A program made the translations under genes and the position numbers. From positions 310,001-374,000 of the forward strand of contig JBBELK010000108.1 in NCBI GenBank assembly GCA_037783545.1: a DNA stretch of 64,000 nucleotides, written 5' to 3'. Source of the DNA: Henricia sp. BOLD:AAB3569. Taxonomy: Eukaryota > Echinodermata > Asteroidea > Spinulosida > Echinasteridae. Of this stretch, positions 1-20,601 are shown one piece after another. Position 1 is the first letter of the stretch. Every line of letters begins with the position of its first letter. Under the pieces are notes generated by a model that saw nothing but the letters and a program-made list of their open reading frames with translations, did no database searches and was not told the origin of the DNA.

Positions 1-98
1 AACTTTGAAATTTCTCTGCCATTTCCCGGCGAAAGTCTGTCAATTTTTTAGGACAAGTGCGCAATATAGAGTGTTCGGAGCATGCAAAATTTGAAGTT

Positions 99-134: not shown

Positions 135-151
135 TTTGAACCACACTTTGA

Positions 152-172
152 CCAAATTGCCGTGCCAAACTG
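152..172. other. LINE target site in an uninterrupted monomer (example)
   Basis: In both occupied monomers the LINE 3' end abuts CCAAATTGCC and the LINE 5' end abuts the continuation GTGCCAAACTGG with one mismatch. In this empty monomer the junction maps between 161 and 162. With target-primed reverse transcription, the first nick would be on the plus strand after TTGCC. A near copy of the left half-site, CCAAATTTGCC, lies 31 bp upstream (120-130) and is not used. Confidence 0.75.
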
Positions 173-186
173 GGGTGCGTCAACGA

Positions 187-201
187 CAGTCCGAAGGACT
201 G
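187..201. other. Conserved perfect hairpin in the monomer (example copy)
   Basis: CAGTCC-GAA-GGACTG forms a 6-bp stem with a 3-nt loop. It recurs in nearly every monomer. It is altered to TACGAAGG only beside the two LINE 5' ends (9285-9292 and 15145-15152), and to TTCGAAGG in one monomer near 21931. The inverted symmetry is seen directly; a function in RNA or in DNA extrusion is not shown. Confidence 0.7.
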
Positions 202-223
202 AGCATGCGCACGAGTCAGGAGT

Positions 224-238
224 ACACCAAAGAGGTGT
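224..238. other. Second short hairpin in the monomer (example copy)
   Basis: ACACC-AAAGA-GGTGT forms a 5-bp stem with a 5-nt loop, 22 bp downstream of the CAGTCC hairpin. It recurs in most monomers. Single exceptions break the stem: ACATC near 16066, and TACCCC in the monomers near 27570 and 29049. Confidence 0.6.
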
Positions 239-3200
239 GTACAGACAGCCACGGGTTGCGTGAGCAGTCAGGAAGCTCCAACCCAGTTTTCCCTAAACTT
301 TTAAATTTCTCTGCCATTTCCCGGCGAAAGTCTGTCAATTTTTTAGGACAAGTGCGCAATATAGAGTGTTCGGAGCATGCAAAATTTGAAGTTCGTCGGA
401 AAATTTTTTGACCTCCAAATTTGCCGACGTTTGAACCACACTTTGACCAAATTGCCGTGCCAAACTGGGGTGCGTCAACGACAGTCCGAAGGACTGAGCA
501 TGCGCACGAGTCAGGAGTACACCAAAGAGGTGTGTACAGACAGCCACGGGTTGCGTGAGCAGTCAGGAAGCTCCAACCCAGTTTTCCCTAAACTTTGAAA
601 TTTCTCTGCCATTTCCCGGCGAAAGTCTGTCAATTTTTTAGGACAAGTGCGCAATATAGAGTGTTTGGAGCATGCAAAATTTGAAGTTCGGCGGAAAATT
701 TTTCGACCTCCAAATTTGCCGACGTTTGAACCACACTTTGACCAAATTGCCGTGCCAAACTGGGGTGCGTCAACGACAGTCCGAAGGACTGAGCATGCGC
801 ACGAGTCAGGAGTACACCAAAGAGGTGTGTACAGACAGCCACGGGTTGCGTGAGCAGTCAGGAAGCTCCAACCCAGTTTTCCCTAAACTTTTAAATTTCT
901 CTGCCATTTCCCGGCGAAAGTCTGTCAATTTTTTAGGACAAGTGCGCAATATAGAGTGTTCGGAGCATGCAAAATTTGAAGTTCGTCGGAAAATTTTTCG
1001 ACCTCCAAATTTGCCGACGTTTGAACCACACTTTGACCAAATTGCCGTGCCAAACTGGGGTGCGTCAACGACAGTCCAAAGGACTGAGCATGCGCACGAG
1101 TCAGGAGTACACCAAAGAGGTGTGTACAGACAGCCACGGGTTGCGTGAGCAGTCAGGAAGCTCCAACCCAGTTTTCCCTAAACTTTGAAATTTCTCTGCC
1201 ATTTCCCGGCGAAAGTCTGTCAATTTTATAGGACAAGTGCGCAATATAGAGTGTTTGGAGCATGCAAAATTTGAAGTTCGTCGGAAAATTTTTCGACCTC
1301 CAAATTTGCCGACGTTTGAACCACACTTTGACCAAATTGCCGTGCCAAACTGGGGTGCGTCAACGACAGTCCGAAGGACTGAGCATGCGCACGAGTCAGG
1401 AGTACACCAAAGAGGTGTGTACAGACAGCCACGGGTTGCGTGAGCAGTCAGAAAGCTCCAACCCAGTTTTCCCTAAACTTTGAAATTTCTCTGCCATTTC
1501 CCGGCGAAAGTCTGTCAATTTTTTTAGGACAAGTGCGCAATATAGAGTGTTTGGAGCATGCAAAATTTGAAGTTCGTCGAAAAATTGTTCGACCTCCAAA
1601 TTTGCCGACGTTTGAACCACACTTTGACCAAATTGCCGTGCCAAACTGGGGTGCGTCAACGACAGTCCGAAGGACTGAGCATGCGCACGAGTCAGGAGTA
1701 CACCAAAGAGGTGTGTACAGACAGCCACGGGTTGCGTGAGCAGTCAGGAAGCTCCAACCCAGTTTTCCCTAAACTTTGAAATTTCTCTGCCATTTCCCGG
1801 CGAAAGTCTGTCAATTGTTTAGGACAAGTGCGCAATATAGAGTGTTTGGAGCATGCAAAATTTGAAGTTCGTCGGAAAATTTTTCGACCTCCAAATTTGC
1901 CGACGTTTGAACCACACTTTGACCAAATTGCCGTGCCAAACTGGGGTGCGTCAACGACAGTCCGAAGGACTGAGCATGCGCACGAGTCAGGAGTACACCA
2001 AAGAGGTGTGTACAGACAGCCACGGGTTGCGTGAGCAGTCACGAAGCTCCAACCCAGTTTTCCCTAAACTTTGAAATTTCTCTGCCATTTCCCGGCGAAA
2101 GTCTGTCAATTTTTTAGGACAAGTGCGCAATATAGAGTGTTTGGAGCATGCAAAATTTGAAGTTCGTCGAAAATTTTTTCGACCTCCAAATTTGCCGACG
2201 TTTGAACCACACTTTGACCAAATTGCCGTGCCAAACTGGGGTGCGTCAACGACAGTCCGAAGGACTGAGCATGCGCACGAGTCAGGAGTACACCAAAGAG
2301 GTGTGTACAGACAGCCACGGGTTGCGTGAGCAGTCAGGAAGCTCCAACCCAGTTTTCCCTAAACTTTGAAATTTCTCTGCCATTTCCCGGCGAAAGTCTG
2401 TCAATTTTTTAGGACAAGTGCGCAATATAGAGTGTTTGGAGCATGCAAAATTTGAAGTTCGTCGGAAAATTTTTCGACCTCCAAATTTGCCGACGTTTGA
2501 ACCACACTTTGACCAAATTGCCCTGCCAAACTGGGGTGCGTCAACGACAGTCCGAAGGACTGAGCATGCGCACGAGTCAGGAGTACACCAAAGAGGTGTG
2601 TACAGACAGCCACGGGTTGCGTGAGCAGTCAGGAAGCTCCAACCCAGTTTTCCCTAAACTTTGAAATTTCTCTGCCATTTCCTGGCGAAAGTCTGTCAAT
2701 TTTTTAGGACAAGTGCGCAATATAGAGTGTTTGGAGCATGCAAAATTTGAAGTTCGTCGAAAAATTTTTCGACCTCCAAATTTGCCGACGTTTGAACCAC
2801 ACTTTGACCAAATTGCCGTGCCAAACTGGGGTGCGTCAACGACAGTCCGAAGGACTGAGCATGCGCACGAGTCAGGAGTACACCAAAGAGGTGTGTTCAG
2901 ACAGCCACGGGTTGCGTGAGCAGTCAGGAAGCTCCAACCCAGTTTTCCCTAAACTTTGAAATTTCTCTGCCATTTCCCGGCGAAAGTCTGTCAATTTTTT
3001 AGGACAAGTGCGCAATATAGAGTGTTCGGAGCATGCAAAATTTGAAGTTCGTCGGAAAATTTTTCGACCTCCAAATTTGCCGACGTTTGAACCACACTTT
3101 GACCAAATTGCCGTGCCAAACTGGGGTGCGTCAACGACAGTCCGAAGGACTGAGCATGCGCACGAGTCAGGAGTACACCAAAGAGGTGTGTACAGACAGC

Positions 3201-4293
3201 CACGGGTTGCGTGAGCAGTCAGGAAGCTCCAACCCAGTTTTCCCTAAACTTTGAAATTTCTCTGCCATTTCCCGGCGAAAGTCTGTCAATTTTATAGGAC
3301 AAGTGCGCAATATAGAGTGTTTGGAGCATGCAAAATTTGAAGTTCGTCGGAAAATTTTTCGACCTCCAAATTTGCCGACGTTTGAACCACACTTTGACCA
3401 AATTGCCGTGCCAAACTGGGGTGCGTCAACGACAGTCCGAAGGACTGAGCATGCGCACGAGTCAGGAGTACACCAAAGAGGTGTGTACAGACAGCCACGG
3501 GTTGCGTGAGCAGTCAGGAAGCTCCAACCCAGTTTTCCCTAAACTTTGAAATTTCTCTGCCATTTCCCGGCGAAAGTCTGTCAATTTTTTAGGACAAGTG
3601 CGCAATATAGAGTGTTTGGAGCATGGAAAATTTGAAGTTCGTCGGAAAATTTTTCGACCTCCAAATTTGCCGACGTTTGAACCACACTTTGACCAAATTG
3701 CCGTGCCAAACTGGGGTGCGTCAACGACAGTCCGAAGGACTGAGCATGCGCACGAGTCAGGAGTACACCAAAGAGGTGTGTACAGACAGCCACGGGTTGC
3801 GTGAGCAGTCACGAAGCTCCAACCCAGTTTTCCCTAAACTTTGAAATTTCTCTGCCATTTCCCGGCGAAAGTCTGTCAATTTTTTAGGACAAGTGCGCAA
3901 TATAGAGTGTTTGGAGCATGCAAAATTTGAAGTTCGTTGAAAAATTGTTCGACCTCCAAATTTGCCGACGTTTGAACCACACTTTGACCAAATTGCCGTG
4001 CCAAACTGGGGTGCGTCAACGACAGTCCGAAGGACTGAGCATGCGCACGAGTCAGGAGTACACCAAAGAGGTGTGTACAGACAGCCACGGGTTGCGTGAG
4101 CAGTCAGGAAGCTCCAACCCAGTTTTCCCTAAACTTTGAAATTTCTCTGCCATTTCCCGGCGAAAGTCTGTCAATTTTTTTAGGACAAGTGCGCAATATA
4201 GAGTGTTTGGAGCATGCAAAATTTGAAGTTCGTCGAAAAATTGTTCGACCTCCAAATTTGCCGACGTTTGAACCACACTTTGACCAAATTGCC

Positions 4294-4533
4294 TTTTTAT
4301 AAAATGTTTTATTTTTCCAAATAAAACACACCAAGTTACATATTTACAATTTAACCAAATCTAAAGAAAAATGTACATTTTAAAAAAGTGTAACTTTCAC
4401 TTTAACGAAAACTTCAAAATTCAAAACCATACACATGTTACAACGTTATATTTAAGGTGGGCAAGACCGCACCCGGCCAAGAAGAACTTGAGAAAACGGT
4501 TTGAGAAATCTACGGGCCCCGACATGGGTTTCG
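4294..4533 (-). other. 3' UTR of LINE copy 1
   Basis: About 240 nt follow the ORF2 TAA. The ORF-proximal part (about 4454-4533) is GC-richer and nearly identical in copy 2. The distal part is AT-rich and carries several substitutions and A/T-run length changes relative to copy 2. In the element's sense it ends TTTTATAAAAA at the satellite junction; there is no long poly(A) tail. A 3' stem-loop recognised by the RT is possible, but I see no convincing one. Confidence 0.8.
4308..4313 (-). promoter_or_regulatory. AATAAA polyadenylation signal, LINE copy 1
   Basis: AATAAA on the minus strand, 14 bp from the 3' end of the element. It is also present in copy 2 at 10157-10162. The position is suitable for directing cleavage near the observed terminal A5, although the A run is short. 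Confidence 0.6.
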
Positions 4534-7500
4534 TTACACAAAATAACGAACTTTATGCAAAATAAGATCTGTTGAAATATTAACTTTCCTAGCAAACTTT
4601 ACGTCATTCCGGCACTTCCAAACAACATAACGAAAGTAACTTAAAACTTTAAGGATACGTAATTCTGCAGACTTTGCAGGTGAACCAAAAAGAGAAAAAA
4701 CGAGATTATCCATGTCGGGGAGGGTGTAGCGCTTCGTGATGTTACCCAGGTAACGGCTGAGCCACTCCCCCACCGGTCTGACCACGCGGCACTCGGTGAA
4801 CAAGTGACGCGTGGACTCAAAGGTCCCACAGTGTGGACAAAGCCCTGGGGTGCCAAAAATTCGATTCAAAAACTGACCGGTGGGAAGCACTCTGTGCATA
4901 ATTCGAAAGTTCAAAGAAACCTGATAATTTGGCAAATTCTTGCACAGAGCGCGTTGCCATACAGTGGCCCAGTCTTTACCGGGGTTTTTACGCTGCACCC
5001 TGGGAATGATCTTTTGGGATTCCACAATGTCTGCATATAACTGTGCCATCTTCAGGTCCCCCCAATTAGTAACCAAATGTTTGTATTTTCTGAACGAAAT
5101 CAAGACAGTATCGTAAAAGGGGGAACGAGAAAAGCAGTGCGGTATGCTGTTGACGGCCAAGTGGGGGGCAATGTCCCGGAGGGACAGCCCACACCAATAG
5201 GAAGCTAGAACTTTCCACTTTGCCGCCCGTTCAGAAATTAAGTCTTTTATATGCAGACATTGGAGCGCGACTATTCTACTTTCCAGGTCAATGACTCCAA
5301 GGCCTCATTTGGAGGGTGGCAGGTGCATGGTTTTCCGGTTGACATATTCTGTTGATTGGCCCCAAATAAATCCAAAAATAATACGATTAATCTTTGAAAT
5401 GATATTCTTCCCCGGTGGATGGATTTCGGCTAGATACCATAACTGAGATAATATATATTGATTGATGACAGTGACCTTACCCTTTAGGGTTAAGTCACTG
5501 TCATCCCATTCTCCAATTGTTTTCCTGAGTTTCATTATTTTCTCCTCCCAAATGTTGTTTTTGTGTTCTCCGTACCCGAGTTCCACCCCAACGACTTTCA
5601 CGGAATTTACCCAATTGATGTCAACCGGACCATGCATCTGACCTCGCCATCGGCCTAGATAAACGCCACCCGTTTTCCTTTGGTTTAGCTTGGCCCCGGA
5701 CGCGCGCTCGTATCTCTCGATCAGCCGAAAGCTTCGGGCGACCGAGCGCTCGTCCGACAAGATCAACGTGGTATCATCGGCGTACATGGACATTTTGGCT
5801 TCGGTCCCACCCGGCATTTTAACCCCGTGAATATTAACATCGTTACGGATCGCTGCCGCCAAAGGCTCTAAAGAAAGAATGTACAAGAGGGGCGACAGGG
5901 GACATCCCTGTCGCACACCCCGAAATAAAGGAAAGGAATCCGAAACATGCCCGTTGCAAATAACTGAACTTTGAATATCTTTATACAATATTCCCACCCA
6001 CTTTTTGAAATTGTCACCGAAGCCAAAGGTATCCAAAACACGCCGAAGATATTCCCAGTCAACCCTGTCGAACGCCTTCTGCTGATCGAGAGACACGAAA
6101 ATAGCGCCCAGGTTTTTCTGGTCGACGTAACTCTGAACGTTTCGAAGAAGATGGGCGTTGTCCGATATGGACCGACCGACTACGGAGCAGGTCTGATCGA
6201 TATCGATGATTCGATCGAGAACACCCCGCAGTCGGTTGGCAAGCACCTTGGCAATTAACTTGTAATCAACGTTAAGCAGAGAAATCGGTCGCCAATTACC
6301 CAGATCCCCCCTCTCCCCCTTATTCTTGTACAGCAAAGTAATCAACCCCAATCTTTGTGAATCTGTGAGAACCCCATTATTAAAAATTTCGTTAATCAAG
6401 TCGCAAAGGTCAGAACCCAAATCATCAAAAAAATGTTTATAAAAATCAGCAGAAAAACCGTCGGAGCCAGGTGTTTTGCCAGTGCCCATATCGAACAATG
6501 CCCGTCTCAATTCAAGAAGAGTGACCGGACCCTCGAGAGAGTCACGGTCCTCTGAACTTAAATGTCTGTTAACAGAATTACAAAAGAAATCTACGTCATT
6601 GTGGCTAATTAAAGGTGCTGAATATAAGTCTGAATAAAATTCTTTGCAGTGGTTGGTCATATCCTTAGAGTTAGAAATGATATTGCCGTGTTTGTCTTTT
6701 AAATTATCCATGCGTTTTAAATCATCATTGTTATTTAAATCAAAATTAATCGTTTCACCGGGAATCTTGGGACGTTTGTGCTGAAAAGAACTGAAATTTT
6801 GCTGGTTTTTCTCTAATTGTGTCAACTTAAAACGAATATCTTTAACTTTAACACCATATGAAGCGTCACCTTTGTCTAAATTACATTGATAATCATTTAG
6901 TTTACGTAATAGGTCTTTACGTTCAGAGTTACGTCGACGCGCTAAACCGACGGAAAAAGAAATTGCCGCTCGTTTTAGGCCCGAATTCCCTCCTCCCACC
7001 AGTCACTTAAATTTCGAAATTCCCCTTTTTGCGTTCGCCAAAAATCCCACTCCCTTTTAATAGTGTCTTGAAACAAAACATTTCCCAAAAGACTAGAATT
7101 CAATTTCCAAAACCCCTTTCCAATGTTTGAAATCCCCCCCATTATTTTAGTACATACCATGTCGTGGTCGGACCACGGAAAAGCGGCAATTTCACTAAGG
7201 GAACCCACAGACAACTCCCGCGATAGATAAATACGGTCGATTCTTGTCCCTTGGTTTTGTGCACTATTGTGCCAGGTGAAACGCTGCTGGTCGGGGTTTT
7301 GCTCCCGCCAGCAGTCTACTAAATTAAAATTTGCAACTGATTTATTAAATTCCTTTATACCGGATTTTCCAAGAACAGAATCTCCCTTTGAATCTATGCC
7401 AGGTTCTGGAACACAATTAAAATCTCCCCCCAAAATAACATGACGAAAGCCGTGAAAATGGTGTGGCAACTCAGTTGAAAAAAAGGATTTTCTTTCCCCC

Positions 7501-7853
7501 CGGTCATTGGGGGCATAGACATTAATGATACGAACCTTTTTATCAGTGTTTGGTAAAGTAATTGTAAGGGACAAAATTCGACCGTTGTCATCCCGGAAGA
7601 GGTCCGTGGGTTTCCACGAGTGGCGCTTTGAAAGCAAAATAGCCACACCTCTACTGGAACTATTCCCAAAACACCAAAACCCTTTACCGTCGAATTCCCG
7701 GGTCCACGATCTGGCTTCGTGGAAACCAGATGCGTGGGTCTCCTGCAACAGTAGAATATCAGTATTCTTGCCGTTGCACGAGCCGAAAATTCGACGGCGC
7801 TTATCGTGATTTCTTAAACCGTTAACATTCACACTGGAAATTAAAAATTCCAT
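4534..7853 (-). pseudogene. LINE ORF2 (endonuclease + reverse transcriptase), copy 1, one frameshift and one nonsense codon
   Basis: ORF2 encodes the nick-and-copy enzyme for target-primed reverse transcription; undamaged it would be about 1,106 residues. The N-terminal APE-type endonuclease (1-235) keeps its key residues: N11, Q37-E38, NVYAPN at 111-116, GGDFN at 142-146, RIDRIY at 204-209 and SDHD at 228-231. GKGFWKLN then follows. The RT has GNWRPISLLNVDYK, SLDQQKAFD, RQGCPLSP and the catalytic YADD (5773-5784). A C-terminal CX2CX7HX4C motif lies at 4789-4839. Two lesions are seen. One C is missing from a run near 6988-6990, where copy 2 has four C and this copy three; this separates the endonuclease from the RT. 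A TGA at 5305-5307 replaces the GGA found in copy 2 and cuts off the last quarter. Downstream of it the same frame is open to the TAA at 4534-4536. Confidence 0.92.
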
Positions 7854-7889
7854 TATTTATAGGATTTGTTAAAAACCCCAAACCAATTC
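7854..7889 (-). other. ORF1-ORF2 spacer, copy 1
   Basis: Thirty-six nucleotides separate the ORF1 TGA from the ORF2 ATG. The ORFs are therefore in the same frame, but two further in-frame TAA codons lie in the spacer, so simple stop readthrough cannot fuse them. ORF2 would need reinitiation or internal initiation. The 8 nt before the ATG read TATAAATA. The spacer has the same length in copy 2 (13715-13750). Confidence 0.75.
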
Positions 7890-9242
7890 TCATTTCTTCT
7901 TGGCCTTACGGCAGTTCTTTTTGGTTTCCCACACACCACCCTGCTGTTCGTCAGACGACGACCGCCCCCGCTTGCTTGAAATCATTGAGACGACTGAGTC
8001 CTTGTCCGAGTCCGTGGACTCCCGCTCCGACAACGGGGTCTCGTTGATGACAAGAGGCCCCGAAGTTATAATTGAGTCCATTTCGTCCAAAAGTACTTCA
8101 AACATAGACCGTTCCGCCCAGGAACGCGTTGCGTCTGCCTTGTTTATTCCTTTCCTGGGCGGACGCGGTCCTTTTGCCGGAGCAGGAGTCGGGGCGGGTG
8201 CCAATGGCGGGGGCGGTGCAGGCTTGGTTGGTGGTGGGGCCTTGGGTGCGGTCTTGCCGGGTGGTGAAGAGGGAGCTGTCCGGCCAGGCAGAGCCGCGCC
8301 TCGTCCCATGTTTGGTTTTCTCACAGGAGTGTTCTTGCGTGGAACTGGACGGGGCGCGGATTTTTGTCCCGGTGCAGCGGTTGATGGAGGACCGGCGTTC
8401 TGTGGTCCCGGGGTACGTTCCGCGCTGGTTCCTGCGGGTTTTGGTTGCGGAGCATTGCTCGGTCCAGCGCGTTGCGGTCCCGGGGCAGGCACGGTGCGGG
8501 CTGCCGGTGTTGGGGTTGTGGTGGGGGTCGGGGTGGTGGGGGTCGGGGTGTCGGCGGTATCCTCGGAGTCGGCGTCTGAATGAATGCTTACATTGTCTCT
8601 GTGCTGAATGTTATTGCCGACTCTCTGCGCCCAGGTCTGTTGGTGTCGAGGCGGCTTCGGGCAAATGTTGCTGCGGTGCCCAGCTTCACCGCAATTATAG
8701 CAGCGAATCTGGACACAAAAAGCCGCCTTATGCCCGGGCGCTCCACACCGCCGGCAGGTCTCTACTTGGCCGTTGTAACGTACCTTTAATTGGTAACCCC
8801 CGACCCACACGTACGACGGGATGGCCTTGTCGACATGCATGCGGATATGCCGCATGCCGTTTTCCCACGTTGGATGCAATACCCAGTGTCCCCGTCGTAC
8901 TCCCAACACCGTACCGTACTGTCCAAGAAGTGTGATGATAGGCCGATCCTCCATTTCGTAGGGTGCGTAGCTAACGGTAACGTAGTCTACTGGTCGCTGC
9001 ACCGGGCTGGCGTTAAACCTGACATTCCCCGCGGCAAGTTGAGTTTCCAGGATCTTCTTCCTCCCGGCGGCGGTCCTCGGCGTCACAAGCCATCGCAGGT
9101 CTCCGAGTTGTTGGAGGCACTTGATCTCGCCGTCGGGAAGGGTAGACGCAATGGTTCGGCAGACATCCTGGTAGTTCAACTTGCTGGGCAGGTCCAAAGT
9201 CACAGTCAGCTCCCTCTTCAGGTTAGAATTAGCGTCGTTCAT
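7890..9242 (-). CDS. LINE ORF1 protein, copy 1, intact: RNA-binding protein with two CCHC zinc knuckles
   Basis: A 450-residue ORF1 protein, expected to bind the element's own RNA and form the retrotransposition particle. Residues about 10-160 look like the RRM-type fold of L1/Tx1 ORF1 proteins, with a stretch containing LLGQYGTVLGVRRG at 105-118; the fold itself is inferred. Two knuckles are plain: C163-x2-C166-x4-H171-x4-C176 and C181-x2-C184-x4-H189-x4-C194. Residues about 229-365 are a Pro/Ala/Thr-rich low-complexity linker, followed by a short conserved-looking tail (about 370-400) and a basic C-terminus. The start is supported by an in-frame TGA two codons upstream (9246-9248), within the 14-nt leader. 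This is the only undamaged ORF of the four in the window. The stop is TGA at 7890-7892, 36 bp before the ORF2 ATG. Confidence 0.92.
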   Translation of the reverse strand: MNDANSNLKRELTVTLDLPSKLNYQDVCRTIASTLPDGEIKCLQQLGDLRWLVTPRTAAGRKKILETQLAAGNVRFNASPVQRPVDYVTVSYAPYEMEDRPIITLLGQYGTVLGVRRGHWVLHPTWENGMRHIRMHVDKAIPSYVWVGGYQLKVRYNGQVETCRRCGAPGHKAAFCVQIRCYNCGEAGHRSNICPKPPRHQQTWAQRVGNNIQHRDNVSIHSDADSEDTADTPTPTTPTPTTTPTPAARTVPAPGPQRAGPSNAPQPKPAGTSAERTPGPQNAGPPSTAAPGQKSAPRPVPRKNTPVRKPNMGRGAALPGRTAPSSPPGKTAPKAPPPTKPAPPPPLAPAPTPAPAKGPRPPRKGINKADATRSWAERSMFEVLLDEMDSIITSGPLVINETPLSERESTDSDKDSVVSMISSKRGRSSSDEQQGGVWETKKNCRKAKKK

Positions 9243-9256
9243 GGTTCACGGCACAA
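9243..9256 (-). other. Minimal 5' UTR and 5' junction of LINE copy 1
   Basis: Only about 14 nt (17 at most) lie between the ORF1 ATG and satellite sequence. They include an in-frame TGA. This leaves no room for an internal promoter of the L1 kind. Copy 2 has the same leader (15103-15116), so this is the shared structure and not a random 5' truncation of one copy. Confidence 0.75.
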
Positions 9257-10142
9257 GTCCCAAACTGGGGTGCGTCAACGACAGTACGAAGGACTGAGCA
9301 TGCGCACGAGTCAGGAGTACACCAAAGAGGTGTGTACAGACAGCCACGGGTTGCGTGAGCAGTCAGGAAGCTCCAACCCAGTTTTCCCTAAACTTTAAAA
9401 TTTCTCTGCCATTTCCCGGCGAAAGTCTGTCAATTTTTTAGGACAAGTGCGCAATATAGAGTGTTTGGAGCATGCAAAATTTGAAGTTCGTCGGAAAATT
9501 TTTCGACCTCAAAATTTGCCGACGTTTAAACCACACTTTGACCAAATTGCCGTGCCAAACTGGGGTGCGTCAACGACAGTCCGAAGGACTGAGCATGCGC
9601 ACGAGTCAGGAGTACACCAAAGAGGTGTGTACAGACAGCCACGGGTTGCGTGAGCAGTCAGGAAGCTCCAACCCAGTTTTCCCTAAACTTTGAAATTTCT
9701 CTGCCATTTCCCGGCGAAAGTCTGTCAATTTTTTAGGACAAGTGCGCAATATAGAGTGTTTGGAGCATGCCAAATTTGAAGTTCGTCGGAAAATTTTTCG
9801 ACCTCCAAATTTGCCGACGTTTGAACCACACTTTGACCAAATTGCCGTGCCAAAACTGGGGTGCGTCAACGACAGTCCGAAGGACTGAGCATGCGCACGA
9901 GTCAGGAGTACACCAAAGAGGTGTGTACAGACAGCCACGGGTTGCGTGAGCAGTCAGGAAGCTCCAACCCAGTTTTCCCTAAACTTTGAAATTTCTCTGC
10001 CATTTCCCGGCTAAAGTCTGTCAATTTTTTAGGACAAGTGCGCAATATAGAGTGTTTGGAGCATGCAACATTTGAAGTTCGTCGGAAAATTTTTCGACCT
10101 CCAAATTTGCCGACGTTTGAACCACACTTTGACCAAATTGCC
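9257..10142. repeat. 295-bp satellite, three-monomer island between the two LINEs
   Basis: These 886 bp hold exactly three monomers, one carrying an extra A (AAAACTGGGG near 9851-9860). Because both LINEs interrupt the monomer at the same base, the island is a whole number of units. It starts GTCCCAAACTGG, one mismatch from the usual GTGCCAAACTGG, and ends CCAAATTGCC. Private variants include TACGAAGG (9285-9292, usual TCCGAAGG), CGACCTCAAAATTTG (near 9504-9518), GGCTAAAGTC (near 10009-10018) and CATGCAACATT (near 10063-10073). Confidence 0.95.
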
Positions 10143-10385
10143 TTTTTCTAAAATGTTTTATTTTTCCAAATAAAACACACTAAGTTACATATTTACAATT
10201 TAACCAAATCTAAATAAAATGTACATTTTTTTTAAAAAGTGTAACTTTCACTTTAACGAAAACTTCACAATTCAAAAACCATACACATGTTAAAACGTTA
10301 TATTGAAGGTGGGCAAGACCGCACCCGGCCAAGAAGAACTTGAGAAAACGGTTTGAGAAATCTACGGGCCCCGACATGGGTTTCG
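10143..10385 (-). other. 3' UTR of LINE copy 2
   Basis: About 243 nt, matching copy 1 closely over the ORF-proximal part and less so over the AT-rich end, where T/A runs differ in length (for example the run of eight T near 10227-10234). AATAAA lies at 10157-10162 on the minus strand, 14 bp from the junction. Confidence 0.8.
10157..10162 (-). promoter_or_regulatory. AATAAA polyadenylation signal, LINE copy 2
   Basis: Minus-strand AATAAA at the same distance from the 3' end as in copy 1. Confidence 0.6.
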
Positions 10386-13300
10386 TTACACAAAATAACG
10401 AACTTTATGCAAAATAAGATCTGTTGAAATATTAACTTTCCTAGCAAACTTTACGTCATTCCGGCACTTCCAAACAACATAACGAAAGTAACTTAAAACT
10501 TTAAGGATACGTAATTCTGCAGACTTTGCAGGTGAACCAAAAAGAGAAAAAACGAGATTATCCATGTCGGGGAGGGTGTAGCGCTTCGTGATGTTACCCA
10601 GGTAACGGCTGAGCCACTCCCCCACCGGTCTGACCACGCGACACTCGGTGAACAAGTGACGCGTGGACTCAAAGGTCCCACAGTGTGGACAAAGCCCTGG
10701 GGCGCCGAAAATTCGATTCAAAAACTGACCGGTGGGAAGCACTCTGTGCATAATTCGAAAGTTCAAAGAAACCTGATAATTTGGCAAATTCTTGCACAGA
10801 GCGCGTTGCCACACAGTGGCCCAGTCTTTACCGGGGTTTTTACGCTGCACCCTGGGAATGATCTTTTGGGATTCCACAATGTCTGTATATAACTGTGCCA
10901 TCTTCAGGTCCCCCCAATTAGTAACCAAATGTTTGTATTTTCTGAACGAAATCAAGACAGTATCGTAAAAGGGGGAACGAGAAAAGCAGTGCGGTATGCT
11001 GTTGACGGCCAAGTGGGGGGCAATATCCCGGAGGGACAGCCCACACCAATAGGAAGCGATACTTTCCACTTGGCCGCCCGTTCAGAAATTAAGTCTTTTA
11101 TATGCAGACATTGGAGCGCGACTATTCTACTTTCCAGGTCAATGACTCCAAGGCCTCCTTTGGAGGGTGGCAGGTGCATGGTTTTCCGGTTGACATATTC
11201 TGTTGATTGGCCCCAAATAAATCCAAAAATAATACGATTAATCTTTGAAATGATATTCTTCCCCGGTGGATGGATTTCGGCTAGATACCATAACTGAGAT
11301 AATATATATTGATCGATGACAGTGACCTTACCCTTTAGGGTTAAGTCACTGTCATCCCATTCTCCAATTGTTTTCCTGAGTTTCATTATTTTCTCCTCCC
11401 AAATGTTGTCTTTGTGTTCTCCGTACCCGAGTTCCACCCCAACGACTTTCACGGAATTTACCCAATTGATGTCAACCGGACCATGCATCTGACCTCGCCA
11501 TCGGCCTAGATAAACGCCACCCGTTTTCCTTTGGTTTGGCTTGGCCCCGGACGCGCGCTCGTATCTCTCGATCAGCCGAAAGCTTCGGGCGACCGAGCGC
11601 TCGTCCGACAAGATCAACGTGGTATCATCGGCGTACATGGACATTTTGGCTTCGGTCCCACCCGGCATTTTAACCCCGTGAATATTAACATCGTTACGGA
11701 TCGCTGCCGCCAAAGGCTCTAAAGAAAGAATGTATATACAAGAGGGGCGACAGGGGACATCCCTGTCGCACACCCCGAAATAAAGGAAAGGAATCCGAAA
11801 CATGCCCGTTGCAAATAACTGAACTTTGAATATCTTTATACAATATTCCCACGCACTTTTTGAAATTGTCACCGAAGCCAAAGGTATCCAAAACACGCCG
11901 AAGATATTCCCAGTCAACCCTGTCGAACGCCTTCTGCTGATCGAGAGACACGAAAATAGCGCCCAGGTTTTTCTGGTCGACGTAACTCTGAACGTTTCGA
12001 AGGAGATGGGCGTTGTCCGATATGGACCGAACGACTACGGAGCAGGTCTGATCGATATCGATGATTCGATCGAGAACACCCCGCAGTCGGTTAGCAAGCA
12101 CCTTGGCAATTAACTTGTAATCAACGTTAAGCAGAGAAATCGGTCGCCAATTACCCAGATCCCCCCTCTCCCCCTTATTCTTGTACAGCAAAGTAATCAA
12201 CCCCAATCTTTGTGAATCTGTGAGAACCCCATTATTAAAAATTTCGTTAATCAAGTCGCAAAGGTCAGAACCCAAATCATCAAAAAAATGTTTATAAAAA
12301 TCAGCAGAAAAACCGTCGGAGCCAGGTGTTTTGCCAGTGCCCATATCGAACAATGCCCGTCTCAATTCAAGAAGAGTGACCGGACCCTCGAGAGAGTCAC
12401 GGTCCTCTGAACTTAAATGTCTGTTAACAGAATTACAAAAGAAATCTACGTCATTGTGGCTAATTAAAGGTGTGAATATAAGTCTGAATAAAATTCTTTG
12501 CAGTGGTTGGTCATATCCTTAGAGTTAGAAATTATATTGCCGTGTTTGTCTTTTAAATTATCCATGCGTTTTAAATCATCATTGTTATTTAAATCAAAAT
12601 TAATCGTTTCACCGGGAACCTTGGGACGTTTGTGCTGAAAAGAACTGAAATTTGGCTGGTTTTTCTCTAATTGTGTCAACTTAAAACGAATATCTTTAAC
12701 TTTAACACCATATGAAGCGTCACTTTTGTCTAAATTACATTGATAATCATTTAGTTTACGTAATAGGTCTTTACGTTCAGAGTTACGTCGACGCGCTAAA
12801 CCGACGGAAAAAGAAATTGCCGCTCGTTTTAGGCCCGATTTCCCCTCCTCCCACCAGTCACTTAAATTTCGAAATTCCCCTTTTTGCGTTCGCCAAAAAT
12901 CCCACTCCCTTTTAATAGTGTCTTGAAACAAAACATTTCCCAAAAGACTAGAATTCAATTTCCAAAACCCCTTTCCAATGTTTGAAATCCCCCCCCCCCC
13001 CATTATTTTAGTGCATACCATGTCGTGGTCGGACCACGGAAAAGCGGCAATTTCACTAAGGGAACCCACAGACAACTCCCGCGATAGATAAATACGGTCG
13101 ATTCTTGTCCCTTGGTTTTGTGCACTATTGTGCCAGGTGAAACGCTGCTGGTCGGGGTTTTGCTCCCGCCAGCAGTCTACTAAATTAAAATTTGCAACTG
13201 ATTTATTAAATTCCTTTATACCGGATTTTCCAAGAACAGAATCTCCCTTCGAATCTATGGCAGGTTCTGGAACACAATTAAAATCTCCCCCCAAAATAAC

Positions 13301-13714
13301 ATGACGAAAGCCGTGAAAATGGTGTGGCAACTCAGTTGAAAAAAAGGATTTTCTTTCCCCCCGGTCATTGGGGGCATAGACATTAATGATACGAACCTTT
13401 TTATCAGTGTTTGGTAAAGTAATTGTAAGGGACAAAATTCGACCGTTGTCATCCCGGAAGAGGTCCGTGGGTTTCCACGAGTGGCGCTTTGAAAGCAAAA
13501 TAGCCACACCTCTACTGGAACTATTCCCAAAACACCAAAACCCTTTACCGTCGAATTCCCGGGTCCACGATCTGGCTTCGTGGAAACCAGATGCGTGGGT
13601 CTCCTGCAACAGTAGAATATCGGTATTCTTGCCGTTGCACGAGCCGAAAATTCGACGGCGCTTATCGTGATTTCTCAAACCGTTAACATTCACACTGGAA
13701 ATTAAAAATTCCAT
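10386..13714 (-). pseudogene. LINE ORF2 (endonuclease + reverse transcriptase), copy 2, three frameshifts
   Basis: The endonuclease and the start of the linker-RT region are in one open frame (13714 to about 12470), with the catalytic motifs seen in copy 1. Three breaks follow. A C is missing near 12472 (GGTGTGAAT against GGTGCTGAAT in copy 1). A 4-bp TATA-type insertion lies at 11733-11738. One base is lost near 11055-11062 together with neighbouring substitutions. The RT motif CSVVGRS of copy 1 reads CSVVVRS here, losing the glycine usual before the arginine in this family. YADD and the CX2CX7HX4C motif are still encoded, in different frames. At the place of the copy 1 stop codon this copy has GGA (Gly). 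The end is the same TAA (10386-10388). Confidence 0.91.
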
Positions 13715-13750
13715 TATTTATAGGATTTGTTAAAAACCCCAAACCAATTC

Positions 13751-15102
13751 TCATTTCTTCTTGGCCTTACGGCAGTTCTTTTTGGTTTCCCACACACCAC
13801 CCTGCTGTACGTCAGACGACGACCGCCCCCGCTTGCTTGAAATCATTGAGACGACTGAGTCCTTGTCCGAGTCCGTGGACTCCCGCTCCGACAACGGGGT
13901 CTCGTTGATGACAAGAGGCCCCGAAGTTATAATTGAGTCCATTTCGTCCAAAAGTACTTCAAACATAGACCGTTCCGCCCAGGAACGCGTTGCGTCTGCC
14001 TTGTTTATTCCTTTCCTGGGCGGACGCGGTCCTTTTGCCGGAGCAGGAGTCGGGGCGGGTGCCAATGGCGGGGGCGGTGCAGGCTTGGTTGGTGGTGGGG
14101 CCTTGGGTGCGGTCTTGCCGGGTGGTGAAGAGGGAGCTGTCCGGCCAGGCAGGGCCGCGCCTCGTCCCATGTTTGGTTTTCTCACAGGAGTGTTCTTGCG
14201 TGGAACTGGACGGGCGCGGATTTTTGTCCCGGTGCAGCGGCTGATGGAGGACCGGCGTTCTGTGGTCCCGGGGTACGTTCCGCGCTGGTTCCTGCGGGTT
14301 TTGGTTGCGGAGCATTGCTCGGTCCAGTGCGTTGCGGTCCCGGGGCAGGCACGGTGCGGGCTGCCGGTGTTGGGGTTGTGGTGGGGGTCGGGGTGGTGGG
14401 GGTCGGGGTGTCGGCGGTATCCTCGGAGTCGGTGTCTGAATGAATGCTTACATTGTCTCTGTGCTGGATGTTATTGCCGACTCTCTGCGCCCAGGTCTGT
14501 TGGTGTCGAGGCGGCTTCGGGCAAATGTTGCTGCGGTGCCCAGCTTCACCGCAATTATAGCAGCGAATCTGGACACAAAAAGCCGCCTTATGCCCGGGCG
14601 CTCCACACCGCCGGCAGGTCTCTACTTGGCCGTTGTAACGTACCTTTAATTGGTAACCCCCGACCCACACGTACGACGGGATGGCCTTGTCGACATGCAT
14701 GCGGATATGCCGCATGCCGTTTTCCCACGTTGGATGCAATACCCAGTGTCCCCGTCGTACTCCCAACACCGTACCGTACTGTCCAAGAAGTGTGATGATA
14801 GGCCGATCCTCCATTTCGTAGGGTGCGTAGCTAACGGTAACGTAGTCTACTGGTCGCTGCACCGGGCTGGCGTTAAACCTGACATTCCCCGCGGCAAGTT
14901 GAGTTTCCAGGATCTTCTTCCTCCCGGCGGCGGTCCTCGGCGTCACAAGCCATCGCAGGTCTCCGAGTTGTTGGAGGCACTTGATCTCGCCGTCGGGAAG
15001 GGTAGACGCAATGGTTCGGCAGACATCCTGGTAGTTCAACTTGCTGGGCAGGTCCAAAGTCACAGTCAGCTCCCTCTTCAGGTTAGAATTAGCGTCGTTC
15101 AT
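13751..15102 (-). pseudogene. LINE ORF1, copy 2, frameshifted after the zinc knuckles
   Basis: Same ORF1 as copy 1, starting at the equivalent ATG (15100-15102) behind the same in-frame TGA. The N-terminal region and both CCHC knuckles are intact. One G is lost in the run near 14212-14214 (CGGGCGCGG here, CGGGGCGCGG in copy 1). As a result the first frame ends at residue 306, within the Pro/Ala-rich linker. The original frame resumes and is open to the TGA at 13751-13753, so the C-terminal tail is present but out of frame. The truncated product would keep the RNA-binding part. Confidence 0.9.
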
Positions 15103-15116
15103 GGTTCACGGCACAA
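15103..15116 (-). other. Minimal 5' UTR and 5' junction of LINE copy 2
   Basis: Identical in length and sequence to the copy 1 leader, including the in-frame TGA. It joins the satellite at the same base with the same G-to-C mismatch (GTCCC for GTGCC). Confidence 0.75.
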
Positions 15117-17373
15117 GTCCCAAACTGGGGTGCGTCAACGACGGTACGAAGGACTGAGCATGCGCACGAGTCAGGAGTACACCAAAGAGGTGTGTACAGA
15201 CAGCCACGGGTTGCGTGAGCAGTCAGGAAGCTCCAACCCAGTTTTCCCTAAACTTTGAAATTTCTCTGCCATTTCCCGGCGAAAGTCTGTCAATTTTTTA
15301 GGACAAGTGCGCAATATAGAGTGTTTGGAGCATGCAAAATTTGAAGTTCGTCGAAAAAAAATTTCGACCTCCAAATTTGCCGACGTTTGAACCACACTTT
15401 GACCAAATTGCCGTGCCAAACTGGGGTGCGTCAACGACAGTCCGAAGGACTGAGCATGCGCACGAGTCAGGAGTACACCAAAGAGGTGTGTACAGACAGC
15501 CACGGGTTGCGTGAGCAGTCAGGAAGCTCCAACCCAGTTTTCCCTAAACTTTGAAATTTCTCTGTCATTTCCCGGCGAAAGTCTGTCAATTTTTTAGGAC
15601 AAGTGCGCAATATAGAGTGTGTGGAGCATGCAAAATTTGAAGTTCGTCGGAAAATTTTTCGACCTCCAAATTTACCGACGTTTGAACCACACTTTGACCA
15701 AATTGCCGTGCCAAACTGGGGTGCGTCAACGACAGTCCGAAGGACTGAGCATGCGCACGAGTCAGGAGTACACCAAAGAGGTGTGTACAGACAGCCACGG
15801 GTTGCGTGAGCAGTCAGGAAGCTCCAACCCAGTTTTCCGTAAACTTTGAAATTTCTCTGCCATTTCCCGGCGAAAGTCTGTCAATTTTTTTAGGACAAGT
15901 GCGCAATATAGAGTGTTTGGAGCATGCAAAATTTGAAGTTCGTCGGAAAAATTTTCGACCTCCAAATTTGCCGACGTTTGAACCACACTTTGACCAAATT
16001 GCCGTGCCAAACTGGGGTGCGTCAACGACAGTCCGAAGGACTGAGCATGCGCACGAGTCAGGAGTACATCAAAGAGGTGTGTACAGACAGCCACGGGTTG
16101 CGTGAGCAGTCAGGAAGCTCCAACCCAGTTTTCCCTAAACTTTGAAATTTCTCTGCCATTTCCCGGCGAAAGTCTGTCAATTTTTTAGGACAAGTGCGCA
16201 ATATAGAGTGTGTGGAGCATGCAAAATTTGAAGTTCGTCGGAAAATTTTTCGACCTCCAAATTTGCCGACGTTTGAACCACACTTTGACCAAATTGCCGT
16301 GCCAAACTGGGGTGCGTCAACGACAGTCCGAAGGACTGAGCATGCGCACGAGTCAGGAGTACACCAAAGAGGTGTGTACAGACAGCCACGGGTTGCGTGA
16401 GCAGTCAGGAAGCTCCAACCCAGTTTTCCCTAAACTTTGAAATTTCTCTGCCATTTCCCGGCGAAAGTCTGTCAATTTTTTAGGACAAGTGCGCAATATA
16501 GAGTGTTTGGAGCATGCAAAATTTGAAGTTCGTCGGAAAATTTTTCGACCTCCAAATTTGCCGACGTTTGAACCACACTTTGACCAAATTGCCGTGCCAA
16601 ACTGGGGTGCGTCAACGACAGTCCGAAGGACTGAGCATGCGCACGAGTCAGGAGTACACCAAAGAGGTGTGTACAGACAGCCACGGGTTGCGTGAGCAGT
16701 CAGGAAGCTCCAACCCAGTTTTCCCTAAACTTTGAAATTTCTCTGCCATTTCCCGGCGAAAGTCTGTCAATTTTTTAGGACAAGTGCGCAATATAGAGTG
16801 TGTGGAGCATGCAAAATTTGAAGTTCGTCGGAAAATTTTTCGACCTCCAAATTTGCCGACGTTTCAACCACACTTTGACCAAATTGCCGTGCCAAACTGG
16901 GGTGCGTCAACGACAGTCCGAAGGACTGAGCATGCGCACGAGTCAGGAGTACACCAAAGAGGTGTGTACAGACAGCCACGGGTTGCGTGAGCAGTCAGGA
17001 AGCTCCAACCCAGTTTTCCCTAAACTTTGAAATTTCTCTGCCATTTCCCGGCGAAAGTCTGTCAATTTTTTAGGACAAGTGCGCAATATAGAGTGTTTGG
17101 AGCATGCAAAATTTGAAGTTCGTCGGAAAATGTTTCGACCTCCAAATTTTCCGACGTTTGAACCACACTTTGACCAAATTGCCGTGCCAAACTGGGGTGC
17201 GTCAACGACAGTCCGAAGGACTGAGCATGCGCACGAGTCAGGAGTACACCAAAGAGGTGTGTACAGACAGCCACGGGTTGCGTGAGCAGTCAGGAAGCTC
17301 CAACCCAGTTTTCCCTAAACTTTGAAATTTCTCTGCCATTTCCCGGCTAAAGTCTGTCAATTTTTTAGGACAA

Positions 17374-19143
17374 GTGCACAATATAGAGTGTTTGGAGCAT
17401 GCAAAATTTGAAGTTCGTCGGAAAATTTTTCGACCTCCAAATTTGCCGACGTTTGAACCACACTTTGACCAAATTGCCGTGCCAAACTGGGGTGCGTCAA
17501 CGACAGTCCGAAGGACTGAGCATGCGCACGAGTCAGGAGTACACCAAAGAGGTGTGTACAGACAGCCACGGGTTGCGTGAGCAGTCAGGAAGCTCCAACC
17601 CAGTTTTCCCTAAACTTTGAAATTTCTCTGCCATTTCCCGGCGAAAGTCTGTCAATTTTTTAGGACAAGTGCGCAATATAGAGTGTTTGGAGCATGCAAA
17701 ATTTGAAGTTCGTGGGAAAATTTTTCGACCTCCAAATTTGCCGACGTTTGAACCACACTTTGACCAAATTGCCGTGCCAAACTGGGGTGCGTCAACGACA
17801 GTCCGAAGGACTGAGCATGCGCACGAGTCAGGAGTACACCAAAGAGGTGTGTACAGACAGCCACGGGTTGCGTGAGCAGTCAGGAAGCTCCAACCCAGTT
17901 TTCCCTAAACTTTGAAATTTCTCTGCCATTTCCCGGCGAAAGTCTGTCAATTTTTTAGGACAAGTGCGCAATATAGAGTGTGTGGAGCATGCAAAATTTG
18001 AAGTTCGTCGGAAAATTTTTCGACCTCCAAATTTGCCGACGTTTCAACCACACTTTGACCAAATTGCCGTGCCAAACTGGGGTGCGTCAACGACAGTCCG
18101 AAGGACTGAGCATGCGCACGAGTTAGGAGTACACCAAAGAGGTGTGTACAGACAGCCACGGGTTGCGTGAGCAGTCAGGAAGCTCCAACCCAGTTTTCCC
18201 TAAACTTTGAAATTTCTCTGCCATTTCCCGGCGAAAGTCTGTCAATTTTTTAGGACAAGTGCACAATATAGAGTGTTTGGAGCATGCAAAATTTGAAGTT
18301 CGTCGGAAAATTTTTCGACCTCCAAATTTGCCGACGTTTGAACCACACTTTGACCAAATTGCCGTGCCAAACTGGGGTGCGTCAACGACAGTCCGAAGGA
18401 CTGAGCATGCGCACGAGTCAGGAGTACACCAAAGAGGTGTGTACAGACAGCCACGGGTTGCGTGAGCAGTCAGGAAGCTCCAACCCAGTTTTCCCTAAAC
18501 TTTGAAATTTCTCTGCCATTTCCCGGCGAAAGTCTGTCAATTTTTTAGGACAAGTGCGCAATATAGAGTGTTTGGAGCATGCAAAATTTGAAGTTCGTGG
18601 GAAAATTTTTCGACCTCCAAATTTGCCGACGTTTGAACCACACTTTGACCAAATTGCCGTGCCAAACTGGGGTGCGTCAACGACAGTCCGAAGGACTGAG
18701 CATGCGCACGAGTCAGGAGTACACCAAAGAGGTGTGTACAGACAGCCACGGGTTGCGTGAGCAGTCAGGAAGCTCCAACCCAGTTTTCCCTAAACTTTGA
18801 AATTTCTCTGCCATTTCCCGGCGAAAGTCTGTCAATTTTTTAGGACAAGTGCGCAATATAGAGTGTGTGGAGCATGCAAAATTTGAAGTTCGTCGGAAAA
18901 TTTTTCGACCTCCAAATTTGCCGACGTTTCAACCACACTTTGACCAAATTGCCGTGCCAAACTGGGGTGCGTCAACGACAGTCCGAAGGACTGAGCATGC
19001 GCACGAGTTAGGAGTACACCAAAGAGGTGTGTACAGACAGCCACGGGTTGCGTGAGCAGTCAGGAAGCTCCAACCCAGTTTTCCCTAAACTTTGAAATTT
19101 CTCTGCCATTTCCCGGCGAAAGTCTGTCAATTTTTTAGGACAA
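17374..19143. repeat. Higher-order repeat: three-monomer block in tandem (885 bp x 2)
   Basis: Three consecutive variant monomers, marked GTGCACAAT, then TTCGTGGGAAAA, then GTGTGTGGAG with GTTTCAACC and GAGTTAGGAG, occur from 17374 and again from 18259. The rare combination in the same order shows one tandem duplication of three units. Confidence 0.85.
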
Positions 19144-20601
19144 GTGCGCAATATAGAGTGTTTGGAGCATGCACAATTTGAAGTTCGTCGGAAAATGTTT
19201 CGACCTCCAAATTTGCCGACGTTTAAACCACACTTTGACCAAATTGCCGTGCCAAACTGGGGTGCGTCAACGACAGTCCGAAGGACTGAGCATGCGCACG
19301 AGTCAGGAGTACACCAAAGAGGTGTGTACAGACAGCCACGGGTTGCGTGAGCAGTCAGGAAGCTCCAACCCAGTTTTCCCTAAACTTTGAAATTTCTCTG
19401 CCATTTCCCGGCGAAAGTCTGTCAATTTTTTAGGACAAGTGCGCAATATAGAGTGTTTGGAGCATGCAAAATTTGAAGTTCGTCGGAAAATTTTTCGACC
19501 TCCAAATTTGCCGACGTTTGAACCACACTTTGACCAAATTGCCGTGCCAAACTGGGGTGCGTCAACGACAGTCCGAAGGACTGAGCATGCGCACGAGTCA
19601 GGAGTACACCAAAGAGGTGTGTACAGACAGCCACGGGTTGCGTGAGCAGTCAGGAAGCTCCAACCCAGTTTTCCCTAAACTTTGAAATTTCTCTGCCATT
19701 TCCAGGCGAAAGTCTGTCAATTTTTTAGGACAAGTGCGCAATATAGAGTGTGTGGAGCATGCAAAATTTGAAGTTCGTCGGAAAATTTTTCGACCTCCAA
19801 ATTTGCCGACGTTTCAACCACACTTTGACCAAATTGCCGTGCCAAACTGGGGTGCGTCAACGACAGTCCGAAGGACTGAGCATGCGCACGAGTCAGGAGT
19901 ACACCAAAGAGGTGTGTACAGACAGCCACGGGTTGCGTGAGCAGTCAGGAAGCTCCAACCCAGTTTTCCCTAAACTTTGAAATTTCTCTGCCATTTCCCG
20001 GCGAAAGTCTGTCAATTTTTTAGGACAAGTGCGCAATATAGAGTGTTTGGAGCATGCAAAATTTGAAGTTCGTCGGAAAATGTTTCGACCTCCAAATTTT
20101 CCGACGTTTGAACCACACTTTGACCAAATTGCCGTGCCAAACTGGGGTGCGTCAACGACAGTCCGAAGGACTGAGCATGCGCACGAGTCAGGAGTACACC
20201 AAAGAGGTGTGTACAGACAGCCACGGGTTGCGTGAGCAGTCAGGAAGCTCCAACCCAGTTTTCCCTAAACTTTTAAATTTCTCTGCCATTTCCCGGCGAA
20301 AGTCTGTCAATTTTTTAGGACAAGTGCGCAATATAGAGTGTTTGGAGCATGCAAAATTTGAAGTTCGTCGGAAAATGTTTCGACCTCCAAATTTTCCGAC
20401 GTTTGAACCACACTTTGACCAAATTGCCGTGCCAAACTGGGGTGCGTCAACGACAGTCCGAAGGACTGAGCATGCGCACGAGTCAGGAGTACACCAAAGA
20501 GGTGTGTACAGACAGCCACGGGTTGCGTGAGCAGTCAGGAAGCTCCAACCCAGTTTTCCCTAAAATTTGAAATTTCTCTGCCATTTCCCGGCGAAAGTCT
20601 G

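Follow-up and report, generated by a model that had tools for sequence, protein, structure and literature searches.

The window, i.e. the whole stretch of 64,000 nucleotides that was analysed (G000:C108:310001-374000, part of the 740.7-Mb Henricia sp. assembly of 2,104 contigs), consists throughout of a 295-bp satellite, save two copies of a long interspersed nuclear element (LINE) on the minus strand (Table 1). In our numbering of the satellite monomer, p1 is the G of GTGCCAAACTGG and p295 is the final C of CCAAATTGCC. Both LINEs, which are near-identical, are placed between p295 and p4 of the satellite: on the 3′ side they join it after CCAAATTGCC, and on the 5′ side the satellite restarts at CCAAACTGG with the GTG (p1–p3) of GTGCCAAACTGG missing. 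No target-site duplication is seen in the junction sequences of either copy. An initial annotation of this DNA had described the two copies in a similar way, with the same 3′ junction, the same orientation and no visible duplication, and had proposed a site-specific LINE; this description holds in the main, and the genome-wide counts given below bear out the proposal.

The open reading frame (ORF) 2 is interrupted in copy 1, and both ORFs are interrupted in copy 2. The last 1,001 bp of copy 1 match copies from five other contigs at 99% identity and copy 2 at 98%; thus, neither window copy is a simple duplicate of the other. The fold z value of the 3′ tail is −2.65 for the first copy and −3.13 for the second, and a tail like that of the LINE is present in short interspersed nuclear elements (SINEs), as BLAST matches of 30–42 nt lead to SINE loci.

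Table 1. Features of the window, with positions counted from its first base
Feature	Position	Strand	Evidence and remarks
295-bp satellite array	1..4293	+	14.5 copies; ends CCAAATTGCC = 3′ target flank of copy 1 (Tandem Repeats Finder, sequence)
LINE copy 1, body without satellite leader	4294..9259	−	ORFs, Pfam, junctions
3′ tail of copy 1	4294..4330	−	11-bp stem, GGAA loop, five A at end; fold z, BLAST
ORF2, C-terminal piece	4534..5304	−	Weak zf-RVT, 22.9 bits, under the Pfam cut-off of 27.5
ORF2, reverse transcriptase piece (RVT_1)	5305..7002	−	Pfam E 8.8e-37; best PDB match L1 ORF2p, E 3.5e-59
ORF2, apurinic/apyrimidinic endonuclease (APE) piece	6975..7856	−	Exo_endo_phos E 2.3e-15; best PDB match L1
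ORF1, ~450 aa, CCHC zinc knuckle	7890..9242	−	Begins 17 nt into the LINE body
Satellite-derived 5′ leader, copy 1	9260..9290	−	p4–p34 at most; marker base p30A at 9286
Three satellite monomers separating the LINE copies	9260..10142	+	
LINE copy 2	10143..15119	−	Both ORFs interrupted
Satellite-derived 5′ leader, copy 2	15120..15150	−	Marker base p30A at 15146
295-bp satellite array	15120..63997	+	165.9 copies

The satellite was found at 88,446 + 81,266 = 169,712 sites genome-wide (≤3 mismatches over 36 nt), which corresponds to ~50 Mb or 6.8% of the assembly. As positions 1–17000 of the window yielded neither an Rfam match at E ≤ 5 nor a tRNA, the idea of an array of RNA genes was dropped. On its minus strand the monomer contains TCAGTC at p41–p36 next to TGCGCATGC; we take TCAGTC to be an Initiator-like word, and the meaning of both words as motifs is our assumption. 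A 221-aa open frame within the satellite (54042–54707) was taken as a chance frame. An RRM fold was also considered for ORF1, and the AlphaFold model (199 aa, mean pLDDT 37) was discarded.

Insertion site of the LINE in the satellite

A flank-blind search of the whole assembly with 32 nt from the LINE 3′ end (≤3 mismatches) hit 77 places, whereas the reversed control hit none. Reading the flanks of all 77 places assigned 48 of them to this LINE and 29 to other elements that share its tail, mostly SINEs. The LINE 3′ ends lie at p295/p1 or a local variant of this step in 46 of the 48 cases and in one orientation; 23 of them follow GACCAAATTGCC and the remainder follow variants such as CCAATTTCC, CCAAAATCCC and CCAAATTCCC, with one variant junction (L022) ~5 nt further on. 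The two ends off the site are located elsewhere in the satellite (L061) and outside the satellite (L060, with 216 bp of LINE); both were excluded from the flank statistics. The 5′ ends were counted genome-wide with a 27-nt piece, again flank-blind and with ≤3 mismatches, and all 55 adjoin the satellite in the same orientation, 35 at p4 and 20 at p10. Since each monomer offers 590 strand-specific positions and the satellite makes up only 6.8% of the assembly, chance is excluded. These counts support an integration of the LINE that is specific for one base step, p295/p1, of the 295-bp satellite. The initial annotation had seen this from two copies and had suggested tabulating the 3′ junctions of the whole genome; the finding that most copies lie in unrelated sequence, which it named as fatal to site specificity, did not occur.

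A 32-nt piece from within ORF2 occurs at 55 places, 49 of them in this family and six in a sister family on contig C356. Both ends could be paired for 41 copies, leaving 14 of the 55 5′ ends and seven of the 48 3′ ends unpaired. As the paired ends are 4.9–5.1 kb apart in 35 of the 41 copies, 5′ truncation is rare among them. Exactly five T are present in 43 of 46 LINE tails, unlike a variable poly(A). The expected 3′ place was fetched for nine of the 14 unpaired 5′ ends, and the tail was present at the target in one (L157 on C1422) and absent in eight. On C807 (L177) a LINE lacking its last 200 bases adjoins the satellite, and at the expected 3′ places of four LINEs known by their 5′ ends (L158, L160, L161, L162) a tail-less sequence is found.

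Satellite leader, SINE-derived riders and a sister family

When the 5′ flanking monomer of each copy is compared base by base with its own 3′ flanking monomer, the LINE copies are found to carry ~27–31 nt of satellite at their 5′ end (p4 to p30–34) which often mismatch the local satellite. Between p10 and p30 the 5′ flank is often non-local and near-uniform across copies, and from ~p35 onwards it mostly equals the local satellite. Ten 5′ ends (L104, L106, L107, L109, L111–L114, L135, L136) were excluded from the flank alignment. Three copies with poorly aligned flanks (L012, L015, L046) were left out of the binned comparison and of the satellite clusters and were kept in the distance analysis, so that the bins comprise the 38 well-aligned copies of the 41 with two ends. 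In the leader zone, 50 of 418 cells are discordant at p10–20, 36 of 374 at p21–30 and none of 148 at p31–34; beyond it the values are 7/74 (p35–36), 11/910 (p37–60) and 19/1,513 (p61–100), rising again to 98/3,278 (3.0%) at p201–287. Seven copies, all of one subtype, carry p30 and are local at p35, placing the end of the leader between these two positions.

The base p30A marks the leader. It is present in 30 of 43 scoreable LINE 5′ flanks (53 fetched) and elsewhere in one of 100 monomers in the outer 3′ flanks; among the 179 window monomers it occurs twice, both times in a LINE flank. An exact 24-mer around it is found genome-wide at 40 places with p30A versus 13,538 with p30C, and of these 40 places 31 abut LINE 5′ ends, eight are on C278 and one is on C1069 (C1262 confirmed). 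The eight p30A monomers of C278 (G000, 328405–344937) have no known LINE end adjoining and possibly represent leader fed back into the array. Distances between leaders are not correlated with those between 3′ flanks (Mantel r 0.00, p 0.31). In addition, 20 of the 55 copies have in common an 11-bp deletion across the joint of element and leader (form B). All 20 carry p30A, whereas the 21 paired copies without the deletion (form A) are divided into ten with p30A and eleven with p30C; form B is thus nested within p30A, which fits inheritance on RNA. Probably, then, the RNA begins inside the satellite, and the end of the cDNA can pair with the target, as the comparison of flanks suggests and as has been described for R2 in ribosomal DNA (rDNA).

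The second group of elements at this base are the riders, by which we mean non-coding SINE-derived elements with the 3′ tail of the LINE. The 29 non-LINE matches of the 3′-end search have only the tail in common with the LINE (30–42 nt by BLAST), and one of them, L043, lies at the satellite target. The target followed by the SINE tail is found at 963 places (≤3 mismatches); as ~15 of these are expected to be LINE copies, which are three letters off the pattern, there are roughly 950 riders. The SINE tail alone occurs at 1,501 places, and the target followed by five T at 1,004 (≤2 mismatches). Twenty riders on 20 contigs were hand-picked among the exact matches listed (100). All 20 are located at p295/p1 and are 630–703 bp in length. 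At the 5′ joint, ten begin at p4, as does the LINE, nine possess an additional stub of p4–p25 with an intact target after it, and the remaining one (L149) joins the satellite farther in and was excluded from the SINE bins. L043 and nine riders of the series L137–L156 have the order SINE, p4–p25, intact target, and this duplication of the stub looks like the product of end-joining.

Three riders (L146, L152, L155) lie in local satellite of one subtype and carry the p12–p20 bases of another. From these sequences it seems that riders also move with satellite at their 5′ end. In L155 both the stub and the adjoining p1–p26 are foreign, as expected if the RNA again began in the satellite past an earlier joint. 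In the remaining sampled riders the leader agrees with the local satellite and gives no foreign signal.

The rider has an A-box-like head, TGGCGTACGGG. A B box, exact or with two mismatches, was not found in any of the three riders scanned and is present in exact form in five of six other tail-bearing loci, which were picked for tRNA-like flanks. The rider is hence a SINE as regards the 3′ tail shared with a LINE, and departs from a SINE as regards the A and B boxes of RNA polymerase III (Pol III); without the B box its ordinary transcription by Pol III is doubtful. The relatives found with three mismatches had been candidates for LINEs targeting tRNA or other RNA genes. Their sole likeness to the LINE is the tail; they are SINEs, many of them arranged in tandem, and most apparent targets were therefore SINE heads. 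Four SINE relatives with the shared tail (L040, L041, L042, L067) form short tandem arrays with units of ~222–332 bp, and a match to the histone 3′ untranslated region stem–loop in L041 (5044–5088) is under the Rfam gathering score (29.5 vs 34 bits).

The sister LINE on C356, with six ORF2 matches, is 65–91% identical to the window LINE over the aligned stretches and 84% identical over the longest of them (1,434 bp). Its 3′ end comes after CACGGAAATCTTTAG in both L170 and L171, this sequence being the minus strand of the U5 small nuclear RNA (snRNA) gene at CTTTTA^CTAAAGATTTCCG; in L170 the LINE is followed by the 3′ half of U5, and in L174 a LINE 5′ end is immediately preceded by the U5-like ATTTCGCCTTTTA. 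In L167 and L168 it is the U5-like end of a SINE that precedes this LINE tail. Intact U5 genes are found nearby on C356 (Rfam E 1.4e-15). The U5 word is present at 744 places (≤3 mismatches), and among the 100 matches listed 99 are on C356, mostly ~1,079 bp apart, so that the U5 genes form a tandem array; the joint of U5 and tail is found at three places (≤3 mismatches). From the satellite ends and the U5 ends we conclude that there are two related families with different targets. The U5 copies are few, all on one contig, and may not be independent. On C356 (L170–L174, L063) SINE-tailed elements are also present at the same U5-like site.

Proposed mechanism and its alternatives

We consider it probable that these elements take part in one cycle, in which an L1/Tx1-group LINE specific for a satellite site is transcribed from a start in the satellite, nicks its target, completes integration by pairing of the leader and is exploited by riders. 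The RNA would start on the minus strand of the satellite ~27–36 nt upstream of the element. This is suggested because the LINE has only 17 nt of its own sequence before ORF1, because the leaders of LINE and riders both end between ~p25 and p34 and because the riders lack a B box. The ORF2 protein would bind the stem–loop of the 3′ tail and its APE domain would nick the plus strand of the satellite after CCAAATTGCC (CCAAATTGCC^GTGCC). Reverse transcription would be primed at the nick, where the junctions are observed and up to which the LINE 3′ flank is mostly local satellite. The cDNA would then copy through the leader of 27–31 nt and might pair with the target monomer upstream of the nick. 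Such a pairing would account for the full length of the copies, for the precision of the 5′ joint and for the fact that p1–p3 are constantly lost, the latter since the leader joins the element at p4. The riders, which are found at the same site, would use the machinery of the LINE, and those with a duplicated stub would have taken an end-joining route.

Going further, the array might serve as promoter and landing site at once, with a minus-strand start at ~p25–p39 and a leader which steers the cDNA, a single LINE lineage might have switched between U5 and satellite as targets, and the element possibly drives turnover of the array; for this extended scheme we see even chances. If it is true, selfish elements use a satellite as a renewable habitat.

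Several observations weigh against the proposed cycle. The start of transcription is read from DNA, and the search for a ribozyme at the LINE 5′ end was negative (Rfam, E ≤ 5, window 1–17000). As to the leader, 13 of the 41 differ from the local satellite at p30 only (10) or at none of the listed positions p11–p34 (3); leader and LINE distances are not significantly correlated (r 0.16, p 0.11), and form B needs 10 changes on the tree of LINE 3′ ends, unlike a character inherited on RNA. The scatter of form B also speaks against simple single descent, though in this tree only one of 33 branches is well supported. Next to the 3′ junction (p288–295) 15 of 295 cells are discordant, above the 3.0% at p201–287. 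There is a weak correlation between the distances of the LINEs and those of their 3′ flanks (Mantel r 0.20, p 0.048), and the 5′ and 3′ flanks of the same copy correlate only with r 0.21 (whole distances). Ends with more than three mismatches are uncounted, so that such copies are unseen. Concerning the riders, the sample was taken from exact matches and its tails are uniform by selection, and the tail of the rider L043 folds no better than shuffles (z −1.11).

Among the alternatives, the one that survives best places the RNA 5′ end at a processing site: a long satellite co-transcript would be cut by a self-cleaving ribozyme or a nuclease. R2 RNAs can retain up to a predicted 36 nt of rRNA through upstream cleavage by the ribozyme, according to PMC11331408, and the leader lengths in our elements are similar. 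A ribozyme at the LINE 5′ end was rejected as a candidate, given the Rfam result just mentioned and a predicted 5′-end fold no better than shuffles (z −0.18). Processing is thus unlikely, though by no means negligible, and we continue to favour a start of the RNA within the satellite.

The copies could also stem from one or few insertions and have been multiplied along with the satellite, be it through segmental duplication, through unequal crossing-over or through gene conversion, in which case there would be no insertion specificity. The initial annotation had named descent of all copies from one insertion as a refuting outcome and had cautioned that its two copies may not be independent. 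The caution is justified in part. When copies with near-identical flanks and LINE are merged, the 41 two-ended copies are reduced to 27 clusters, so that 14 are redundant at the threshold used; the two copies on C144 fall into one cluster, and the weak correlation of LINE and flank distances also indicates that some copies are duplicates. On C1126 (G000, 1446–29071) four LINE 5′ ends follow each other with a period of 9.2 kb, which suggests a higher-order repeat including the LINE. Descent from a single insertion is, on the contrary, not what was found. Mean distances are 1.6% for the LINE 3′ ends and 8.5% (3′) and 7.6% (5′) for the flanking monomers of the 41 copies (7.2% for the 3′ flank without the three poorly aligned copies); the divergence of the flanks is thus about fivefold that of the LINEs. 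There are 387 pairs of LINEs within 1% of each other, and in 280 of these pairs the 3′ flanks diverge by 6% or more. With the satellite around the 38 well-aligned copies divided into four clusters, a number chosen by us, several LINE 5′ forms are present in each; on the poorly resolved LINE tree the satellite cluster switches at least 15 times. In addition, the carried tract is one-sided and ends at approximately one place (nothing to speak of on the 3′ side, 27–31 nt on the 5′ side), unlike conversion tracts, and the rider, a different element, is located at the same base. Most LINE copies look like independent insertions whose flanks follow the local satellite subtype, and we regard spreading by duplication as improbable.

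Still less probable is an attraction of the LINE to satellite chromatin regardless of sequence, the common base merely reflecting a local preference of the APE. It is true that SINE-tail elements are also found off target (1,501 places with the tail alone versus 963 with target and tail, for patterns of different length). Nevertheless, of the 590 strand positions available 46 of 48 LINE ends use a single one, all in the same orientation, and the sister family has its 3′ ends at one base of another sequence, the U5 gene. Finally, that the uniform p4–p34 is a matter of target choice, the LINE inserting only beside such monomers without carrying a leader, would be in keeping with a sequence-specific site, at which a preference for flanking bases is plausible, and with alleles at p12, p17 and p20 that are common in some subtypes, but with 31 of the 40 p30A occurrences of the 24-mer abutting LINE 5′ ends against 13,538 p30C sites, and with a stub beside an intact target in nine of 20 riders, we give it hardly any credence.

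Comparison with known systems

The known targets of site-specific LINEs are mainly rDNA, snRNA and tRNA genes, telomeres and microsatellites. As the present strict, many-copy case in a long satellite monomer makes clear, LINEs of this type can find a niche in satellites, and two repeat classes which are usually studied apart are thereby linked. The leader amounts to a testable claim on satellite transcription and on the sealing of the 5′ end by an APE-type LINE. Two related families with fixed targets, the U5 gene and the satellite, open a change of target specificity to experiment, and the endonuclease with its target might become a new tool for site-specific insertion.

The window elements have the RVT_1 and Exo_endo_phos domains and the 3′ tail at the junction that are typical of LINEs, and the family has independent copies at one sequence-defined site, as is typical of a target-specific LINE. 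Compared with solved structures, the reverse transcriptase is closest to L1 ORF2p (E 3.5e-59; best R2 match 2.4e-19) and at E ≤ 0.001 the APE has matches solely to chains of the L1 type, among them LR1 and LTX. From its protein sequences the element is an APE-type LINE of the L1/Tx1 group, the first of the groups considered in the initial annotation; the comparison with solved structures supports this placement in part. For a member of the R1 clade, the APE would be expected to match best the R1/TRAS endonuclease chains, which exist in the PDB; none of these is among its matches at E ≤ 0.001. Against the R2 clade speak the presence of an APE instead of a restriction-like endonuclease and the lack of an Rfam match to a ribozyme like that of hepatitis delta virus (HDV) in window 1–17000 at E ≤ 5. 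An R2-like formation of the 5′ junction would involve a target-derived leader on the RNA; here a leader is seen in the DNA copies.

Examples of the Tx1 clade are Tx1L, Keno on U2 snRNA, Mutsu on 5S rRNA and Dewa on tRNA. Our LINE resembles them in its CCHC ORF1, in the combination of APE and reverse transcriptase and in the use of one fixed site in a multicopy sequence, and its sister family ends in U5 snRNA genes. It differs in having as target a 295-bp satellite without Rfam match, in the target-derived leader and in the ~950 riders, and the likeness to the clade is one of description. Target-specific elements of the Tx1 clade have an APE, according to PMC4640811, which also covers part of the known target range of site-specific LINEs.

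The target-derived sequence at the 5′ end of the DNA copies invites comparison with R2 of rDNA. According to PMC11331408, R2 RNA can keep such sequence, and pairing of cDNA and target leads to exact 5′ junctions, end-joining being the other route; the two are described there for R2 templates that have or lack an rRNA leader. R2 differs in its restriction-like endonuclease, where our LINE has an APE, and in its HDV-like ribozyme, as none was found here.

The riders may be compared with the R2 and R2/R1 short internally deleted elements (SIDEs), which PMC3414825 describes as short and non-autonomous, sharing the 3′ end and the site of a site-specific LINE, and not transcribed by Pol III. The rider likewise is a short non-autonomous element with the 3′ end of a LINE at the site of this LINE. 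Unlike the R2 SIDEs it has a SINE-like head rather than the R2 ribozyme, and it outnumbers its LINE by ~20 to 1. A LINE in a satellite is also represented by the YURE elements of Ciona, but these insertions are occasional and the satellite descends from the U2 gene (PMC4640811).

In the literature searched, where absence is weak evidence as it covers open-access papers only, we found no LINE with such a satellite target, the nearest cases being YURE in its U2-derived satellite and the R2/R1 SIDEs. Cp1 of Chironomus, which is SINE-like and lies in centromeric repeats, resembles the rider as a short element at a fixed satellite site, and to our knowledge no partner LINE is known for it. Thus, the target-specific LINE is of a known kind, and new are its satellite target, the carried leader and the mass of riders.

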